Below are positions 3,664-10,001 of a stretch of 11,615 bases of DNA, one piece after another. A program made the position numbers and the translations under genes. The first letter of the stretch is position 1. Every line of letters begins with the position of its first letter. Below the pieces are notes generated by a model that saw only the letters and a program-made list of their open reading frames with translations, ran no database searches and was not told the DNA's origin. The stretch comes from Amoebophrya sp. AT5.2 (lineage: Eukaryota > Sar > Dinophyceae > Syndiniales > Amoebophryaceae), in NCBI GenBank assembly GCA_005223375.1, contig RXOD01006012.1, forward strand, positions 1 to 11,615, written 5' to 3'.

Positions 3664-5652
3664 CTATCTATGGTATGTGTTGATGTAGTAGTTCTTAGAT
3701 GAAGAATATCGAGAGAACAGGGGATGGTGCATTTTTGATCTCGATAAATGCGGCAAACCACACTTGTCCAGTGGCACACCGTTGCAAGAATCCACGAATT
3801 TCGCGACCTCCCTCGCGTCGACGCACTGCCCTTTCGTCGTGTAGAGGCAAACGCGCCAATTTGGTTCCAGATCCATTCGGCGCCGTTTTGGTTCCAGATC
3901 CGCTGGGCTACCATCTGCCGAACGCCTTTGGAAGATGAAGTTGTTGCACTGGTCCCGGCCCAGTTCGGGGCGCACCGCCCGGCAGGTGCGCAGGTAGCAC
4001 ACCCCGTGCTCCATGGAAGATTCCGTTTCCTCTTCACCCGGCCGGTGCATCGGCACGAAGGTGCAGAGGCCTTCCCGCTCCCCACCCTCGCAACTTTCAA
4101 GCGTGGGGCGATGCAGGTGGCCGCACACGGTTGTGTTCGGGTCTATTCCGAGCCAGGGTTGCACCTGAAGGTCCTGGTCCTGCTGCGCTGGCCGTGGGGG
4201 GGCTGCCGCTTCGGCCGCCCCTGCCATCGTTCCCCTGCCATCCGGTGGCTGCTGCCATCGTTCCCCTCCCATCGTTCCCCTGCCTGCTGCCATCGTGTCA
4301 CTGGGGCGTATCCATGGCTGCTGCATCGGATGGGGCAGGCCGTTCATGTCCCGAAGCTGCAACTTCGTCCTCACGGCCGGCCCGTTTGGATTGGAGGGAC
4401 GGGAGTTAGGATTCTTGGGAGTTTGGAATTTATCTTTTTGTCGTCGTAGGGGTGGCGGTGGATCCGGGTGCGTCCGCTCCCAGCACCTACTAGTGTCCTC
4501 CGTAGCCCCGGCGCGGTTCTCACACGGCTCCCCGACCTCCCCCCGCAGCAATGGCCTACCGCAATCGTCCTCTTTCGTGTACGTGCTGCACGGTTTCATG
4601 CTCTTCACCGGCTCCCCTGTTGCGCACAAAGCGTTCTCGTAGTCCCACTCGCACTTACGCGGCATTTTGTTCGTTTTCCTGTGTCGGGAGGCCGTCCTGT
4701 TCGTTTTCTCGTTCCCGCTCTCGTGTCTGGCGGCAGGGGCGGTGTCCGGGGGCTTCGCTTCGCTGAAGTCGAGCCCGAAATTGCAAGAGGATATGCTCAC
4801 ACCCCAATCGATACAGGTCTTTGGGCGGCACTTGTTAACGCTACGGGACCAGACGCAGGCGAAGGAGCGTGGATAACGACTACGCAGGCTATCCTTCGCG
4901 TGGCACTCCTTAGCGCTCTTGCGGGCCTCGCATGGGACGAAGCCCTGGTGCCTGATGGTCCCCCATATTCGGCCCCCCCTTTTGTGTTTTAAATCAACCT
5001 TTCCCCCGCCCAATAACATTCCCGAACCCTCGGATGGCAGTGTCCCCGCATCCTCCGGTGTAGTTTCCTCGGTGTTTCTTCGGAGGTCCAAACTGCAGTG
5101 TCCGGTCGTGGGGTCCCACGCGCACCTGGTGATCTTCTCCAGCACGCAGTTGGGCCGGTCCCGGTGCGCGTTGCAGGAGCGCGCCCCGACTTCCGGCGCG
5201 CCATCCTGTCTAGCAGCGCCGTGATCGGGGTGAGGCTCCACGATCGGGGCCCGCGGCGCCATCCTGCGCAACGCCTCGCGCATCGCAGCCGCCATCGGCT
5301 TGCTCTCTCGCGTCAACCAGCTCCTCGTGTCAGGCCAGCACCTCCGATGCGAGGAGGAGGCGGACAAAAAAGAGTGCGCATGTGTATTTTTGAGGGGATC
5401 TTCATCATGCTGGTGTGTATTGATGAAAAACCTCTCGTCGCGCTGCCGGGACAGGAGGCTCCGACGCTGAGTCGAGCGCTCCCCCGGTCGGGCCTCCGAT
5501 GCGGAGTTGAGAGTCGATGGTTCCTCGGAGTCGTCGTGCAACGAATCGCCCCCTCGAAGGGAGGAGGGTATCAGGGAGGAGGGTAGCCCCCGGACCCCCA
5601 GAAGGCCACTGACGAGTACCCTGGACCCCCGCCACGTGGTCAAGCTCGGCAT
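3664..5652 (-). CDS. large cysteine-rich repeat protein, probably secreted or an ectodomain (unknown family)
   Basis: I do not recognise the family. The frame is open back to 5850, but the first ATG is at 5652, giving 662 residues. The N-terminus (MPSLTTWRGSRVLVSGLLGV...) has a basic head and a hydrophobic core at about 13-26, so a signal peptide is plausible. A Ser/Arg-rich linker follows. From residue 160 there is a recurring four-cysteine module, C-x(7-11)-C-x(n)-C-x-[WFYN]-x(6-21)-C: Cys 160/169/177/186, 241/250/266/275, 280/290/334/343, 355/364/377/390, 510/521/530/552, 557/569/602/610. Examples of the third-cysteine motif are C-A-W-D-P, C-V-W and C-E-W-D-Y. A Pro/Met/Gly-rich insert lies at about 395-505. 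The last pair, Cys 623/631, starts a seventh module that the frame does not finish. The final residues (Ser/Tyr/Asn-rich) look like read-through into an intron. Paired cysteines imply disulfides outside the cytosol. An upstream start in an unseen exon is possible, because the frame before 5652 also contains a hydrophobic stretch. Confidence 0.6.
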   Translation of the reverse strand: MPSLTTWRGSRVLVSGLLGVRGLPSSLIPSSLRGGDSLHDDSEEPSTLNSASEARPGERSTQRRSLLSRQRDERFFINTHQHDEDPLKNTHAHSFLSASSSHRRCWPDTRSWLTRESKPMAAAMREALRRMAPRAPIVEPHPDHGAARQDGAPEVGARSCNAHRDRPNCVLEKITRCAWDPTTGHCSLDLRRNTEETTPEDAGTLPSEGSGMLLGGGKVDLKHKRGGRIWGTIRHQGFVPCEARKSAKECHAKDSLRSRYPRSFACVWSRSVNKCRPKTCIDWGVSISSCNFGLDFSEAKPPDTAPAARHESGNEKTNRTASRHRKTNKMPRKCEWDYENALCATGEPVKSMKPCSTYTKEDDCGRPLLRGEVGEPCENRAGATEDTSRCWERTHPDPPPPLRRQKDKFQTPKNPNSRPSNPNGPAVRTKLQLRDMNGLPHPMQQPWIRPSDTMAAGRGTMGGERWQQPPDGRGTMAGAAEAAAPPRPAQQDQDLQVQPWLGIDPNTTVCGHLHRPTLESCEGGEREGLCTFVPMHRPGEEETESSMEHGVCYLRTCRAVRPELGRDQCNNFIFQRRSADGSPADLEPKRRRMDLEPNWRVCLYTTKGQCVDAREVAKFVDSCNGVPLDKCGLPHLSRSKMHHPLFSRYSSSKNYYINTYHR
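3861..3901 (-). repeat. 14-bp direct repeat, 27-bp period, encoding DLEP twice
   Basis: TTGGTTCCAGATCC occurs at 3861-3874 and 3888-3901. The 27-bp offset is nine codons, so the frame is kept and DLEP appears twice in the spacer before the sixth module's C-L-Y motif. Confidence 0.8.
4221..4296 (-). repeat. imperfect coding tandem repeat (GRGTM units)
   Basis: CCATCGTTCCCCT recurs at about 4224, 4256 and, in a shortened unit, 4270, with a final CCATCG near 4291. In the coding sense this gives repeated GRGTM and a GGERWQQPPDGRGTM stretch in the linker between modules 4 and 5 of the cysteine-rich protein. It looks like slippage or unequal-exchange expansion in a flexible region. Confidence 0.7.
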
Positions 5653-6358
5653 TCGTAGGCAGGCGCTGACTCTGTTTCGGTTTCTAGGGGTAGGGGTAGG
5701 TCCGCTAGCTGGGTCGAGCTCGAGCTCGAGGCGAGAAAGGAATAGGAAGCAATGTACGGAGAATAAACAGCTCAGATTACGCAGCAGCGATGAAAAACGG
5801 GCCGCATGCCCATCGTCAGTAAGCAAAGTAGAAATATTTTGGGTCTGCACGGCGAATTACAAAAGCCGACTGCTCGGAAAACACAAACGTAAAAAACTGA
5901 TCACTGCGGTCGAGTCGTATTCATTTTTTGAGTTCATCGAGGTCACACGACCTTATCTCGTCGCCAACTATTTACGAGTATTGCAAACGGAGACTCACAT
6001 TCTTAGACATTCAACGCGGAAGCAGCAGGGCAGAGGCAAAACACGGAATTCAATTGAATGCAGACGGAAATAAATCCGTAAAAAAATGAAAACGCACGAA
6101 AAAATGAAAAAACGCACGAACGCGGCAGCGACTCTCGCGGTCTGCAAACGCTAACGCAATTACCTAGGACAACGATGGAATCGACGGAAAAGTGTGCTTG
6201 CATCTTCGGGCCAGTGCCAGCGCGTAGAAGTCGACAGCTATCCGTTGCTCGGATTCGGTTTTGCTTTTTTATAAAAAGCGCGCGAGATGAGTTTCAACCT
6301 GCTTCGAGAACCGCAATGGGGGAATGTTGCTCAGGTGTGCCTACGCGGCAAAGGCTTA
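5653..6358. other. intergenic: probable 5' flank of the cysteine-rich gene and part of the GH3 downstream region
   Basis: No confident gene is visible. It holds a GAGCTC-rich palindrome around 5712-5730, a near-perfect duplication of AAAAAATGAAAACGCACGA around 6078-6120, and a short palindrome GCTTTTTTATAAAAAGC near 6263-6279. The plus-strand frame starting with ATG at 6287 (62 residues, ends 6475) has reasonable composition, but no motif and no homology I recognise. The TATAAAA just upstream of it is too close to its ATG to act as a normal TATA box. Confidence 0.4.
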
Positions 6359-6543: not shown

Positions 6544-9500
6544 TCACGCTGCCCAATTTTCGAAGACCTCGTCTCCATTATTCAAGTACTGCGTGTGCGC
6601 CGATAACACCGGCCAGCGTGTAAGATCAAAGGTCTGCTTCATGACCGTTTCCTTAACGAAGTTGTAGTAGTCTTTCAGGCTGTAGCTTTTCACTTTGGGC
6701 TCCACCTCTACTGTCTCCACCTTTTGCAGTCCACTACCCTCTGCAAAACCGTTTAGCGAGACAAACAGCTCGAAACTCGTCGACGAAACGTATTTTTTTT
6801 CCCTCTGCGAGAACGTTGCCGGCGGCTCCGTGTAGAACACCGCCGCGCACCTCTTTTCCAGGGGCTTCATATTCGCCAGCTTCGCGAAGGCAAGCAACTC
6901 AAAGTACGGACGTTCGTCCGGCTCTAGCTTTTTCACGAAGAACTGCACCACCGGACTCGCTTTCACCACGTTCCTGCCTCTCCCTGCTTTCGCGTTCAGC
7001 TTTGCCCAGGCCTCCCCGGCTCCATCGGGTAGCGAGAAATCGACGCAGAACGAAATGCGCCGCAAGTGCGGGTCATGCTTCTTGACAGACACCCGAAAAT
7101 CCTTGCTCCAATCGGCCAGGGATGTGAGGCCGTACCCAAAGGGAAAGAGCGGCTCCACTTTTCGCGCCTGATACCAGCGATACCCAGTCTGCATTCCATC
7201 CTCACCATCGGTTTTCGTGTAGTCGAGAAGCTTCACACCAGAATGAAATGCTTCGGCAGTAGCATAAAGGGACGGACTGTAGAAGTTGCTCCCCTCGTCG
7301 TAGTTGCCGATGGTGAAGGAGAGCTTCGCGGACGGCGGGCTTTCGTTGAACAAGACGCGCACCAGACCCCTCCCGGCGCACTGCCCAGGTAAGACAGAGA
7401 GCAAAATCGCATCCGCGGAATCGACAACGTCTGCTTTTGGCAGCCTCATGTAGCCCGGGGAGATCACGTACAACACCACCTGGAACCGATGGTGATCTCC
7501 AGCTGTGCTCTTCTTTATTGAGGTTAGCGTGTTCAGATTCATGTTCGACCGGTCGACGTCTTCCCCTCCCAGCACGGCCGGACCGACGCAAATCAAGACC
7601 ACCTCACGCTTCTTGCCGTCGCTCACGTCTGCCTGCGGGACGAGGCTGAGGATGCTTTGTAGTGCCTGGTCGGGGGCGGAATAGCTGATATCAAATCCGG
7701 ACCGGCGCATTTCCTCTGTGGCATCGCGCAAGGCGTGCGCGATGGAAATCGTGCCAGTGCCTGTCACGACGCCACCTGAACCGCTACCGACATATCCGCT
7801 TTGTTTGTCTGCACAGCCGTACGTGCCTATAGCCACTCCATCGGCCCCGTCTTCTGGCCGCAGGAGTAGAGGCAGCGCACGGTTTTCGTTTTTCAGCAGC
7901 ACGATTGAATCCGCGACGAGCTTGCTTCCGACCTGCGCGTGTTTTTTCTTTAGGGCCTCGAAGTCTGCAGTTGAAGTTCTTTCTTCCTTGAGAAGGTTCG
8001 GGCCGCTCGTTTCCACGTCCTCCATCGTCGCGACGATTCGTCTGGCGGCTTTTTCCTGCACCTCGGGATCCACCGAGGGATCCAGGGGTGGCGAGGAGAT
8101 CTCCGGCCCGCCCTGTTCGCTGGATAATCCTGCTCGCAGGTAGAACTCCATCAACGGTTTTGGCAGTTTTGTCTTCCGGTCAACACCTGCAACCAAGCCC
8201 GGCTCTTTGTCGGGCCATTCCTCGCGGATTAAAGAGTATCCGTAGGCGGCCCCGGTGGCCCCCCAGTCTGACATAACGTAGAAGCGCTCACTTAGTTCCG
8301 TGATCCAGGAAAGCGACCATTTGTTGAGGCAGTTTCCGACGCACATCTTCTTCGTGATGCTACCTCCCGCGTCCGCGTGCCCGCATATCCAATTGTAGGC
8401 GCACATGACTGCATTACCGCCCATCGCGAGGGCCGCTGCCCAGTTCTTCAACTGCATCTCAAAAATCGCGCGCAGTGGCGTACTGCTGCAGTACCTTTTC
8501 CTGTGATTTTCCTGGTCGTTCAGAAGGTAGTGCTTCAACGTAGTGACAACCCCGAGCTCGTTGGTCGCGAGCTTGTAGGGTGGCAGCAGCGTCGCGGGCA
8601 AGACCGGATCCTCGCCAGCAATGGACTCGAAATTTCTCCCTCCTTGCGGCACGCGCCACGTGGACACAGATGGCCCGAGGATCGTATTGATCCGGTTTAT
8701 TCTAAACTCCTTGGCGAGCGCTCGGCCGTACACGTAGGCGAACTCCGGATCCCAGCTCATGCCAATCGAGGCGGCAGCCGGCCACGCGGTTTAGAGACCC
8801 AAAGGTGCGCACTTCACAACTAAGTAAAAAATTTCTGGCCTCCTCATTCCACCCCAATCGATCGGGAGGCACCGCCGCCGTCGTCGGTAGGAGCTTTGCC
8901 AGAGGTCGCCCCCGCTCGGTCTGCGGTGGGTGGGAAGCTCTTCTGGCCTCGTGCTGAGAGCCCCTCCGATCCCTCCGGGGGGGCATACTAGGTACCCCTA
9001 TTGAGGCCAGATTCTAACGCGGGGAGCGGTCCAGGAGAGGCCAAAAAGGGGGGGGGTCGTGAGGGGGGGTGCCGATCCCCCCTGAAGGCCCCCCCCGGCA
9101 GTTGGTGCCAGTCCTCGGAACTCGGGGGATGAGTGACTCAGTCCTGCGCAGGCTTATTGCGTTCGTCTTGCATCTGCGGGGCTGTAGAAAGCGCGGGGCT
9201 GAGTCGGCCAAAAATTTTTTACTTTCTTCCAAAGTACGCACCTTGTTTGGGTCTCTAAGCGGTACCTGGAAACTTCTCCCCGTCCTTCTCCCCGACTCCC
9301 TGCGGTCCGTTCGTCATGCCGATCCCCCCGAAGAGCTGTTTCTCTCCAAGCTTGACGTGAGGCAGATGGCCGCCAAAAGTCAGCTGGTCATGAGGTGCGG
9401 CCAGTGGCGTGTTGTCACTAGGTTGCATCTGCAACAATTTACCTAGCCCGGCGGCCGCTTTTATCGCTTTGAGGTTCTTGCGCGTTTTTTCATTTGCCTC

Positions 9501-10001
9501 GGTTTCGTCCTCCTTCCACTTTTCCAGGCGCTTCGCCGCATCCGCCAGAATTTGTTTCACCTCTCCCTCGGTCGGCACAAGCCCGTCAGATGTAGTTGCT
9601 TCATCTTCTGGTGGCGCTCGTCCGCCGCCTGTTGTAACCGGGGCAGTTGTGTTGTTCGCTGTGTCGATTATAGGTATGGTTGCATTTCTTGCGTCCCCCT
9701 TGCCGCCGCAACACGACGGAGATGCCGCTCCGAGCGCTCCTCCAGGTGTTTGCGCCTCGTTGTGTTTCTGCCCCTTGTTTCTGCGCTCCTCAAGGAGCGA
9801 GGCTACTGCTTTTTCGACTCCTACACCTCCTCCTGGCCGCTGCCTTGATAAAAGCGACTGCCTCGGCACGGAAGCGGTGGCGTGATCTCGCGGGATTCCG
9901 CGCTTCAGGAAAGAGGCCACGCACCTGGAAGACCCCCCGAATGCAGCTCCTACGGCCAGAAAGCAGCGGGATCGGCCAGAAAGCATCGGCTTCATCCGCA
10001 T
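6544..10001 (-). CDS. glycoside hydrolase family 3 (beta-glucosidase/beta-xylosidase type), two exons
   Basis: Exons are 10001-9264 and 8790-6544, with the junction uncertain by up to 5 nt, giving about 994 residues. GH3 enzymes remove beta-linked sugars from glycan ends with retention of configuration. ATG 10001 is the first Met in frame after a stop. The N-terminus (SGRSRCFLAVGAAF) could be a weak signal peptide, followed by a low-complexity and Lys/Glu coiled-coil-like segment to about residue 200. The catalytic barrel follows: GMTNGPQGVG (about 225), GTA/WPAAASIGMSWDPEF across the splice, GGRNFES.AGEDP (about 296), LKHYLLNDQENHRKR (about 335), and the nucleophile Asp of VMSDWGA at about 421 (8268-8266). 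The second domain has SIVLLKNENRALPL (about 545), GGEDVDRS (about 655), PGQCAGRGL (canonical PGQEGG, so Glu is replaced by Cys) and LFPFGYGL (about 795). A fibronectin III-like domain follows (SPVVQFFVK, PYFELLAFAKL). Family membership is certain from these motifs. Sugar specificity cannot be read. The N-terminal extension is long for the family. Confidence 0.9.
8786..8790. repeat. target-site duplication, copy 1 (GCGGT)
   Basis: This is the five bases next to the first arm of the introner-like element, identical to 9259-9263. In the coding sense it is ACCGC, part of the codons Thr-Ala of the conserved GTAWP stretch. The bases beyond it differ from those beyond copy 2. Confidence 0.8.
8791..9258. 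mobile_element. introner-like element forming the GH3 intron
   Basis: The element is 468 bp. It begins TTAGAGACCC at 8791 and ends with its mirror GGGTCTCTAA at 9258. The arms stay similar for about 50 bp: 8791-8840 against the reverse complement of 9206-9258, including AAGTAAAAAATTT and TGGCC, with small gaps and substitutions. It is flanked by the direct repeat GCGGT (8786-8790 and 9259-9263). Removing the element and one repeat copy restores the GH3 motif GTAWPAAASIGMSWDPEF in frame. It has no coding capacity that looks like a transposase, so it would be non-autonomous. Inverted-repeat introners with target duplications are known from Amoebophrya and some other protists. That this copy belongs to one of those families is inference. 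Confidence 0.85.
9048..9100. repeat. G-run/C-run hairpin inside the introner
   Basis: Two runs of G (about 9048-9056 and 9064-9070) are followed by two runs of C (about 9077-9082 and 9090-9097). The transcript of either strand could fold into a very stable hairpin, and the G-rich strand has some quadruplex potential. It lies mid-element and is not part of the terminal arms. Confidence 0.6.
9259..9263. repeat. target-site duplication, copy 2 (GCGGT)
   Basis: This is the second copy, next to the other arm. Because the copies are identical, the exact splice point within them cannot be told from DNA. Any of six registers gives the same mRNA. Confidence 0.8.

Follow-up and report, generated by a model that had tools for sequence, protein, structure and literature searches.

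The GH3 gene of the window, that is, of the whole 11,615-nucleotide stretch analysed here (contig C2216 of a partial assembly of 50.7 Mb in 2759 contigs), is interrupted by a transposon insertion with a 5-bp target duplication, given that the empty site is found in three GH3 paralogs of this genome. To judge from its sequence, the architecture of this insertion is that of Amoebophrya introner elements, an already known kind. At the level of its family, removal of the element is supported by long-branched copies in host frames that are still open, and we regard it as marginally probable that the GH3 copy itself would be an introner removed without canonical ends.

The insertion in the GH3 gene

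The GH3 gene lies on the minus strand, from about position 10001 to 6544, and was recognised by Pfam families PF00933 and PF01915 together with beta-glucosidase matches in the PDB. Its two exons are both open, with 994 codons in total. The features of the gene and of the element, in window coordinates, are the following.

9259..10001, minus strand: first GH3 exon, whose start is guessed to be the first ATG in the open frame and which, given precise removal, reaches to the junction
6544..8785, minus strand: second GH3 exon, ending with the stop codon, with PF00933 and PF01915
8791..9258, no strand assigned: 468-bp inverted-repeat element, non-autonomous (MITE / introner family), with matches on at least 30 contigs, its own included
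8791..8800, plus strand: left terminal inverted repeat TTAGAGACCC, read from the sequence and retained in other copies
9249..9258, plus strand: right terminal inverted repeat GGGTCTCTAA, read from the sequence
8791..8846, plus strand: left imperfect arm, with 80% pairing to the right arm
9200..9258, plus strand: right imperfect arm, partner of the left arm
8786..8790, plus strand: left target-site duplication GCGGT (ACCGC in the gene sense), single in the empty-site paralogs
9259..9263, plus strand: right target-site duplication GCGGT, single in the empty-site paralogs

The original prediction had described inverted ends, arms of about 50 bp and GCGGT on both sides, all of which is borne out by the sequence: the terminal inverted repeats are perfect over 10 bp and continue into imperfect arms of about 56 bp, whose complementarity is 80% over 45 nt without gaps and likewise 80% over 56-59 nt when gaps are allowed. 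The longest open stretch spanning the middle of the element encodes 99 aa. As RNA, the element is predicted to fold strongly, with the arms closing its ends (z=-6.15; 0 of 100 shuffles folded as well), in keeping with the suggestion that the arms could pair, a strength explained by the fact that any element with such arms would fold so. With its 10-bp perfect inverted repeat and 5-bp direct repeat, the copy falls within the dimensions of Amoebophrya-type introners (inverted repeats of 8-20 nt, direct repeats of 3-5 nt), and its family shows the characters of MITEs, namely terminal inverted repeats, a constant length of the target duplication, multiple copies and an empty site.

The empty site, for which a comparison with related strains had been proposed, was found in GH3 paralogs of the same genome, where a single ACCGC is present in all three whose junction was retrieved. 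The close paralogs comprise a tandem pair on contig C1276 and one gene on C745; the EukProt protein P0002 corresponds to the latter across the stretch compared by eye, so that EukProt would include a predicted proteome from this organism or one very close to it. As a side observation, P0002 is devoid of a conserved stretch after LAMG, which is probably a gene-model error, because the DNA of locus L089 continues there with GGSAVMCSYNWICGHA-like codons.

In the coding sense, exon 1 ends in ..TTT CCA GGT ACC GC and is followed by TTAG with an in-frame TAG. At the other end of the element stands an in-frame TAA, then ACCGCG TGG CCG GCT, and the first AG downstream of this TAA lies within ATGAGC, which encodes the M-S of SIGMSW. 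The reading frame, the TAG after the duplication, the TAA with ACCGCG and the missing AG had thus been read correctly. Elsewhere in the window, a cysteine-rich open frame of 730 aa (3664-5856, minus strand) had no Pfam match; a Pfam scan of four open reading frames of the window besides those of GH3 found nothing, and an Rfam scan of the window returned no match at the gathering threshold.

Copies, acceptor bias and age across the family

A search of the genome with positions 8786-9263 gave matches on at least 30 contigs, the window's own contig counted. The genome contains 20 occurrences of the 13-mer TTAGAGACCCAAA, compared with 0 of the reversed pattern, and a 24-mer of the element end, with up to 3 mismatches, occurs 31 times, compared with 1 control occurrence. 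Among the copies that could be paired end to end, 15 are flanked by exact 5-bp target duplications, all of them different (11 copies from loci L001-L028 and those in GMD, L008, TIM22 and C1351; in C1351 the left end was located using the duplication as a guide, and its exactness is therefore partly due to selection). The search for further copies with target duplications, which had been proposed together with the original prediction, was thus productive. No exact direct repeat was present in L009, L019 and L021, and the flanks match at 3 of 5 bases in L012 and at 4 of 5 in C385. The HCN-like copy (L019), which has a weak PDB match and a decayed duplication, was excluded from the count of duplications, and the branch length of the GMD copy means little, since only its ends (49 and 24 nt) are common with the family.

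Relative to the host gene, 14 genic copies could be oriented, a count without the GMD copy, which could not be oriented. Six are in sense (cytb561-like, orf195, L005, L013, L008 and Mad2) and eight in antisense (GH3, PFK, L010, L012, TIM22, V-ATPase C, C1351 and HCN-like). Given this mixed orientation, symmetric ends would bear whatever signal exists. As to the gene labels, the cyt b561-like assignment of L003, for which there was neither a PDB match nor a supporting Pfam family, relies on a motif; L008 was judged ARM-like by eye, and a Pfam scan of L007, L010 and L013 gave no significant family. In a scan of loci L002-L028 and the window (107 kb), terminal inverted repeats with duplications of at least 5 nt did not outnumber those of the reversed control once the known family was set aside. 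In the same loci and window, inverted repeats of 8-10 nt with flanking duplications of 2-4 nt exceeded the reversed control (41 vs 7, 16 vs 8 and 11 vs 5) and are possibly further element families.

Whenever the target duplication starts with G in the gene sense, the element end CTAA plus this G makes an AG acceptor. Of 14 genic copies, 10 start their duplication in this way (p=0.0017, for G at a frequency of 0.30), compared with 3 of 14 that have C at the last position of the duplication (discordant copies 8 vs 1, p=0.04); a strand-blind insertion preference would make last-position C as frequent as first-position G. The proportion is 7/11 (p=0.02) without the least certain copies GMD, L012 and C1351, 9/13 (p=0.004) without L012 alone, whose duplication is imperfect, and 4/6 (p=0.07) among the six copies in genes named through PDB or Pfam. 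Adding four half copies at contig ends, which stand outside the 14 (C112 with G, C2397 with A, C2142 with T and C1433 with C), gives 11/18 (p=0.006); further half copies with ambiguous gene sense or ends are also outside the 14, as are C1434 and C385. Copies with G first sit on longer branches (p=0.008), a difference that holds without the three least certain copies (p=0.02). Given both the bias towards G and the longer branches of these copies, the AG acceptor seems to matter, and AG-ended splicing would seem to help copies last.

Terminal branches, which are upper bounds on insertion age as source copies may be absent from the partial assembly, reach 0.16 for Mad2, 0.14 for TIM22, 0.30 for V-ATPase C, 0.20 each for L012 and C1351 and 0.11 for L008. 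The host frames of the long-branch copies in Mad2, TIM22, V-ATPase C, L012 and C1351 are still open, and the hosts of the Mad2, TIM22, V-ATPase C and GMD copies are conserved proteins. The frame of a gene killed that long ago would be expected to have decayed, and the open frames thus argue for removal at the family level.

A second inverted-repeat insertion family was observed in the tandem GH3 paralogs on C1276 (L087 454-890 and L088 430-861). It reads TTAC[CT]TAGAGAGTC...CTAA, is flanked by the duplication TACAA, is common to both tandem paralogs and is absent from the window gene and from the C745 paralog. Its two copies agree at 348 of 411 aligned sites, with 47 gap columns, and this divergence of 15% is close to the dS of 0.21 between the paralogs themselves (omega 0.49, 371 codons; Fisher p=1.4e-4). 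The insertion was retained through purifying selection, and elements of such build can therefore persist in genes under selection. Between the two copies, a single site is different within the first 31 nt, compared with 15% overall, as expected with partial retention as coding exon and a GT donor; constraint on the terminal inverted repeat would fit too.

Splice ends and the fate of the GH3 copy

The organism also seems to have ordinary splicing, because the introns of CCT genes look GT-AG (17 of 17 placed by eye; three tentative ones are also GT-AG, and two were left unplaced). In one CCT chaperonin gene (L081/L080, C1706 ~3690-4250) we observed by eye a duplicated intron-exon stretch with an inverted copy of an exon segment in between, that is, a snap-back. 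U6 was found in the genome; searches of the partial assembly for U1, U2 and the Prp8 PROCN domain found none of them, and these searches gave 0 matches in 14 prokaryote controls. We rejected the absence of U1 as backing for odd splicing, since U2 and Prp8 PROCN are also missing and the assembly is partial. The dinoflagellate spliced leader has 18 exact occurrences and 50 within 2 mismatches in the whole 50.7 Mb (control 0), which marks the host as a dinoflagellate; these sites perhaps stem from mRNAs that re-entered the genome after splicing. The host is probably Amoebophrya-like, to judge from the small assembly and from element ends of TTA plus two purines, as reported for A25 (PMC7789003).

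For the GH3 copy, the six registers of precise removal have the end pairs AC-AA, CC-AA, CG-AC, GC-CC, CT-CG and TT-GC, exactly those listed in the original prediction. None of them is canonical: GT-AG, GC-AG and AT-AC were looked for in these registers and are absent, and no register ends in AG or starts with GT. Given removal, the ends would thus be non-canonical, as in introners of the Amoebophrya type. The GH3 copy has no GT-AG register under which the protein would stay unaltered; among the 15 genic copies, only L010 and L013 have one.

According to the reading that we prefer, a short non-autonomous DNA transposon recently landed in a coding exon of a GH3 gene with several paralogs, in a dinoflagellate that is probably an Amoebophrya-like syndinian. 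Once transcribed, an introner of this family would fold on its inverted repeats and be cut from the pre-mRNA at or near the boundary of repeat and duplication, and the symmetric ends would permit removal in either orientation. Most genic copies would provide an AG acceptor (CTAA plus the G of the duplication) and a few also a GT, whereas the GH3 copy would need to be removed with neither. Precise removal from its message would give ..KFPGTAWPAAASIGMSWDPEF, and the product would be 473 nt shorter, with GGTACCGCGTGG. We rejected the restored reading frame as proof of splicing, as the element and one duplication taken out leave the pre-insertion sequence by definition. Neither the continuity of frames nor the gap-free homolog alignments at the junctions are evidence of splicing, because insertion alone explains both; the alignments at family-copy junctions show only that conserved genes were struck. 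Of the proposed 'recent insertion spliced precisely', the insertion stood, and splicing was supported in part, for removal at the family level, the GH3 copy being one whose duplication offers no AG. Removal with non-canonical ends is credible because introners of this kind have RNA-seq support in Amoebophrya A25 and A120.

Given the age and duplication pattern across copies, it is also credible that the insertion disrupted the gene, an account that we consider possible, if rather doubtful. Lasting genic copies would then sit where AG-ended or GT-AG splicing works, and the GH3 copy would not be properly spliced, its paralog being lost or polymorphic. Indeed, the GH3 copy has the shortest terminal branch of all genic copies (0.023), the joined site is identical to paralog b over its initial 95 nt, counting from GGTACCGC, and the other GH3 paralogs could take over the function. 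Moreover, the four genic copies whose duplication does not start with G (GH3, cytb561-like, PFK and orf195) are all young, with branches (0.023-0.080) that rank within the six shortest of the genic copies, and their GT-AG solutions, which would change 45, 24, 45 and 19 nt, resemble those of simulated insertions. As a whole, the GT-AG solutions of the 15 genic copies are less costly than those of 3000 simulated insertions, for which two GH3 coding stretches served as hosts (median change 23 nt, p=0.03). With a split at branch length 0.09, the nine older copies (0, 5, 5, 5, 15, 15, 18, 33 and 43 nt) do better than the simulated insertions (p=0.02); in Mad2 the solution amounts to one added codon, and TIM22 and L008 persist with no near solution (33 and 43 nt). 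On the other hand, by branch length alone the older copies are not clearly better than the six younger ones (0, 6, 19, 24, 45 and 45 nt; p=0.14), and the correlation between branch length and cost is weak (rho -0.40, p=0.14), so that the GT-AG trend is weak. A sharper contrast between old and young copies (p=0.003) was rejected, since the grouping tracked the first base of the duplication and the 'old' L005, with a branch of 0.052, lies on a shorter branch than PFK and orf195. Also speaking against disruption are the two GH3 exons, which are open over all 994 codons, and the young copies that split the PFK and cyt b561-like frames too, as it is hardly likely that a single consensus assembly would contain several conserved genes that are dead. 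Finally, A25 and A120 introners of like build are spliced with varied ends, as described in PMC7789003.

Canonical GT-AG splicing with an altered protein appears improbable. Within the windows searched, the cheapest in-frame pair consists of a GT donor that precedes the junction by 15 nt and an acceptor in ATGAG 30 nt after it, and introners that change codons are known from Aureococcus (PMC9860276). However, this pair would remove 15 residues and with them the segment FPGTAWPAAASIGM, which is kept and aligned in the three GH3 paralogs and in the homologs P0003 and P0004, in agreement with the earlier claim that no GT-AG intron keeps the motif. Removal at the DNA level instead of from RNA, as a programmed, ciliate-like excision of germline elements, is very improbable: the precise geometry of inverted repeats and duplications is typical of transposase-derived excision, but full elements are present in the assembly, the CCT introns look ordinary, and no dinoflagellate is known to have such a somatic genome.

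Beyond the GH3 copy, we tentatively propose, as an idea that is rather unlikely to hold in full, that these would be orientation-independent introners whose removal requires no 5' splice site defined by its sequence. In them the paired repeats would set both ends, CTAA together with the base that opens the duplication would serve as acceptor (AG if this base is G), any dinucleotide could be the donor, and selection would filter insertions towards AG or GT-AG ends. If this were true, one family would span every stage from an arbitrary-ended insertion to a canonical intron. This touches on two open questions of the field, namely the origin of new introns and the way in which the spliceosome handles introns without GT-AG ends. 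The genome combines young copies without canonical ends, older and mostly AG-capable copies, both orientations and empty-site paralogs, and RNA from this family would therefore distinguish the immediate splicing of arbitrary-ended insertions from survival only where ordinary splicing works.

Comparison with known introners and related elements

According to PMC7789003 (Farhat et al. 2021), more than 60% of the introns in Amoebophrya A25 and A120 are non-canonical, and the introners of these strains have inverted repeats, direct repeats of 3-5 nt and non-canonical ends, with support from RNA-seq. Introners with such junctions, as invoked in the original prediction, are thus indeed described. 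In other Amoebophrya (ex Karlodinium, AT5), splicing is mainly GT-AG (PMC12005148). The present family resembles the A25/A120 introners in its terminal inverted repeats, border direct repeats, inconsistent end dinucleotides, many copies and predicted hairpin, and the TTAGA of the GH3 copy has the form reported for the start of A25 introner motifs, TTA plus two purines (PMC7789003). They differ in that the junctions in A25 and A120 are supported by RNA-seq (PMC7789003), while the junction of the GH3 copy is predicted from DNA. In the passages of the literature consulted, we found no description for Amoebophrya of a gene-sense G bias, of orientation independence or of an age trend.

With the introners that carry target-site duplications and terminal inverted repeats (Gozashti et al. 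2022; PMC9860276), the family shares the origin of an intron from a transposon-like insertion and a duplication that can supply splice bases, as CTAA plus G would do here in most genic copies. Those introners have GY-AG ends, and some members of certain families use GC or GA donors (PMC9860276), whereas the GH3 copy has no AG-ended register. The nonconventional introns of euglenids, as presented in PMC4770533, are similar in their non-canonical borders, pairing ends, direct repeats and proposed MITE-like origin. Their pairing of positions +4..+6 with -8..-6, however, is unattainable here in any register, given the 5-nt duplication and symmetric repeats (by hand arithmetic; PMC4770533). Like MITEs, finally, the family consists of short elements with terminal inverted repeats and a target duplication of fixed length.
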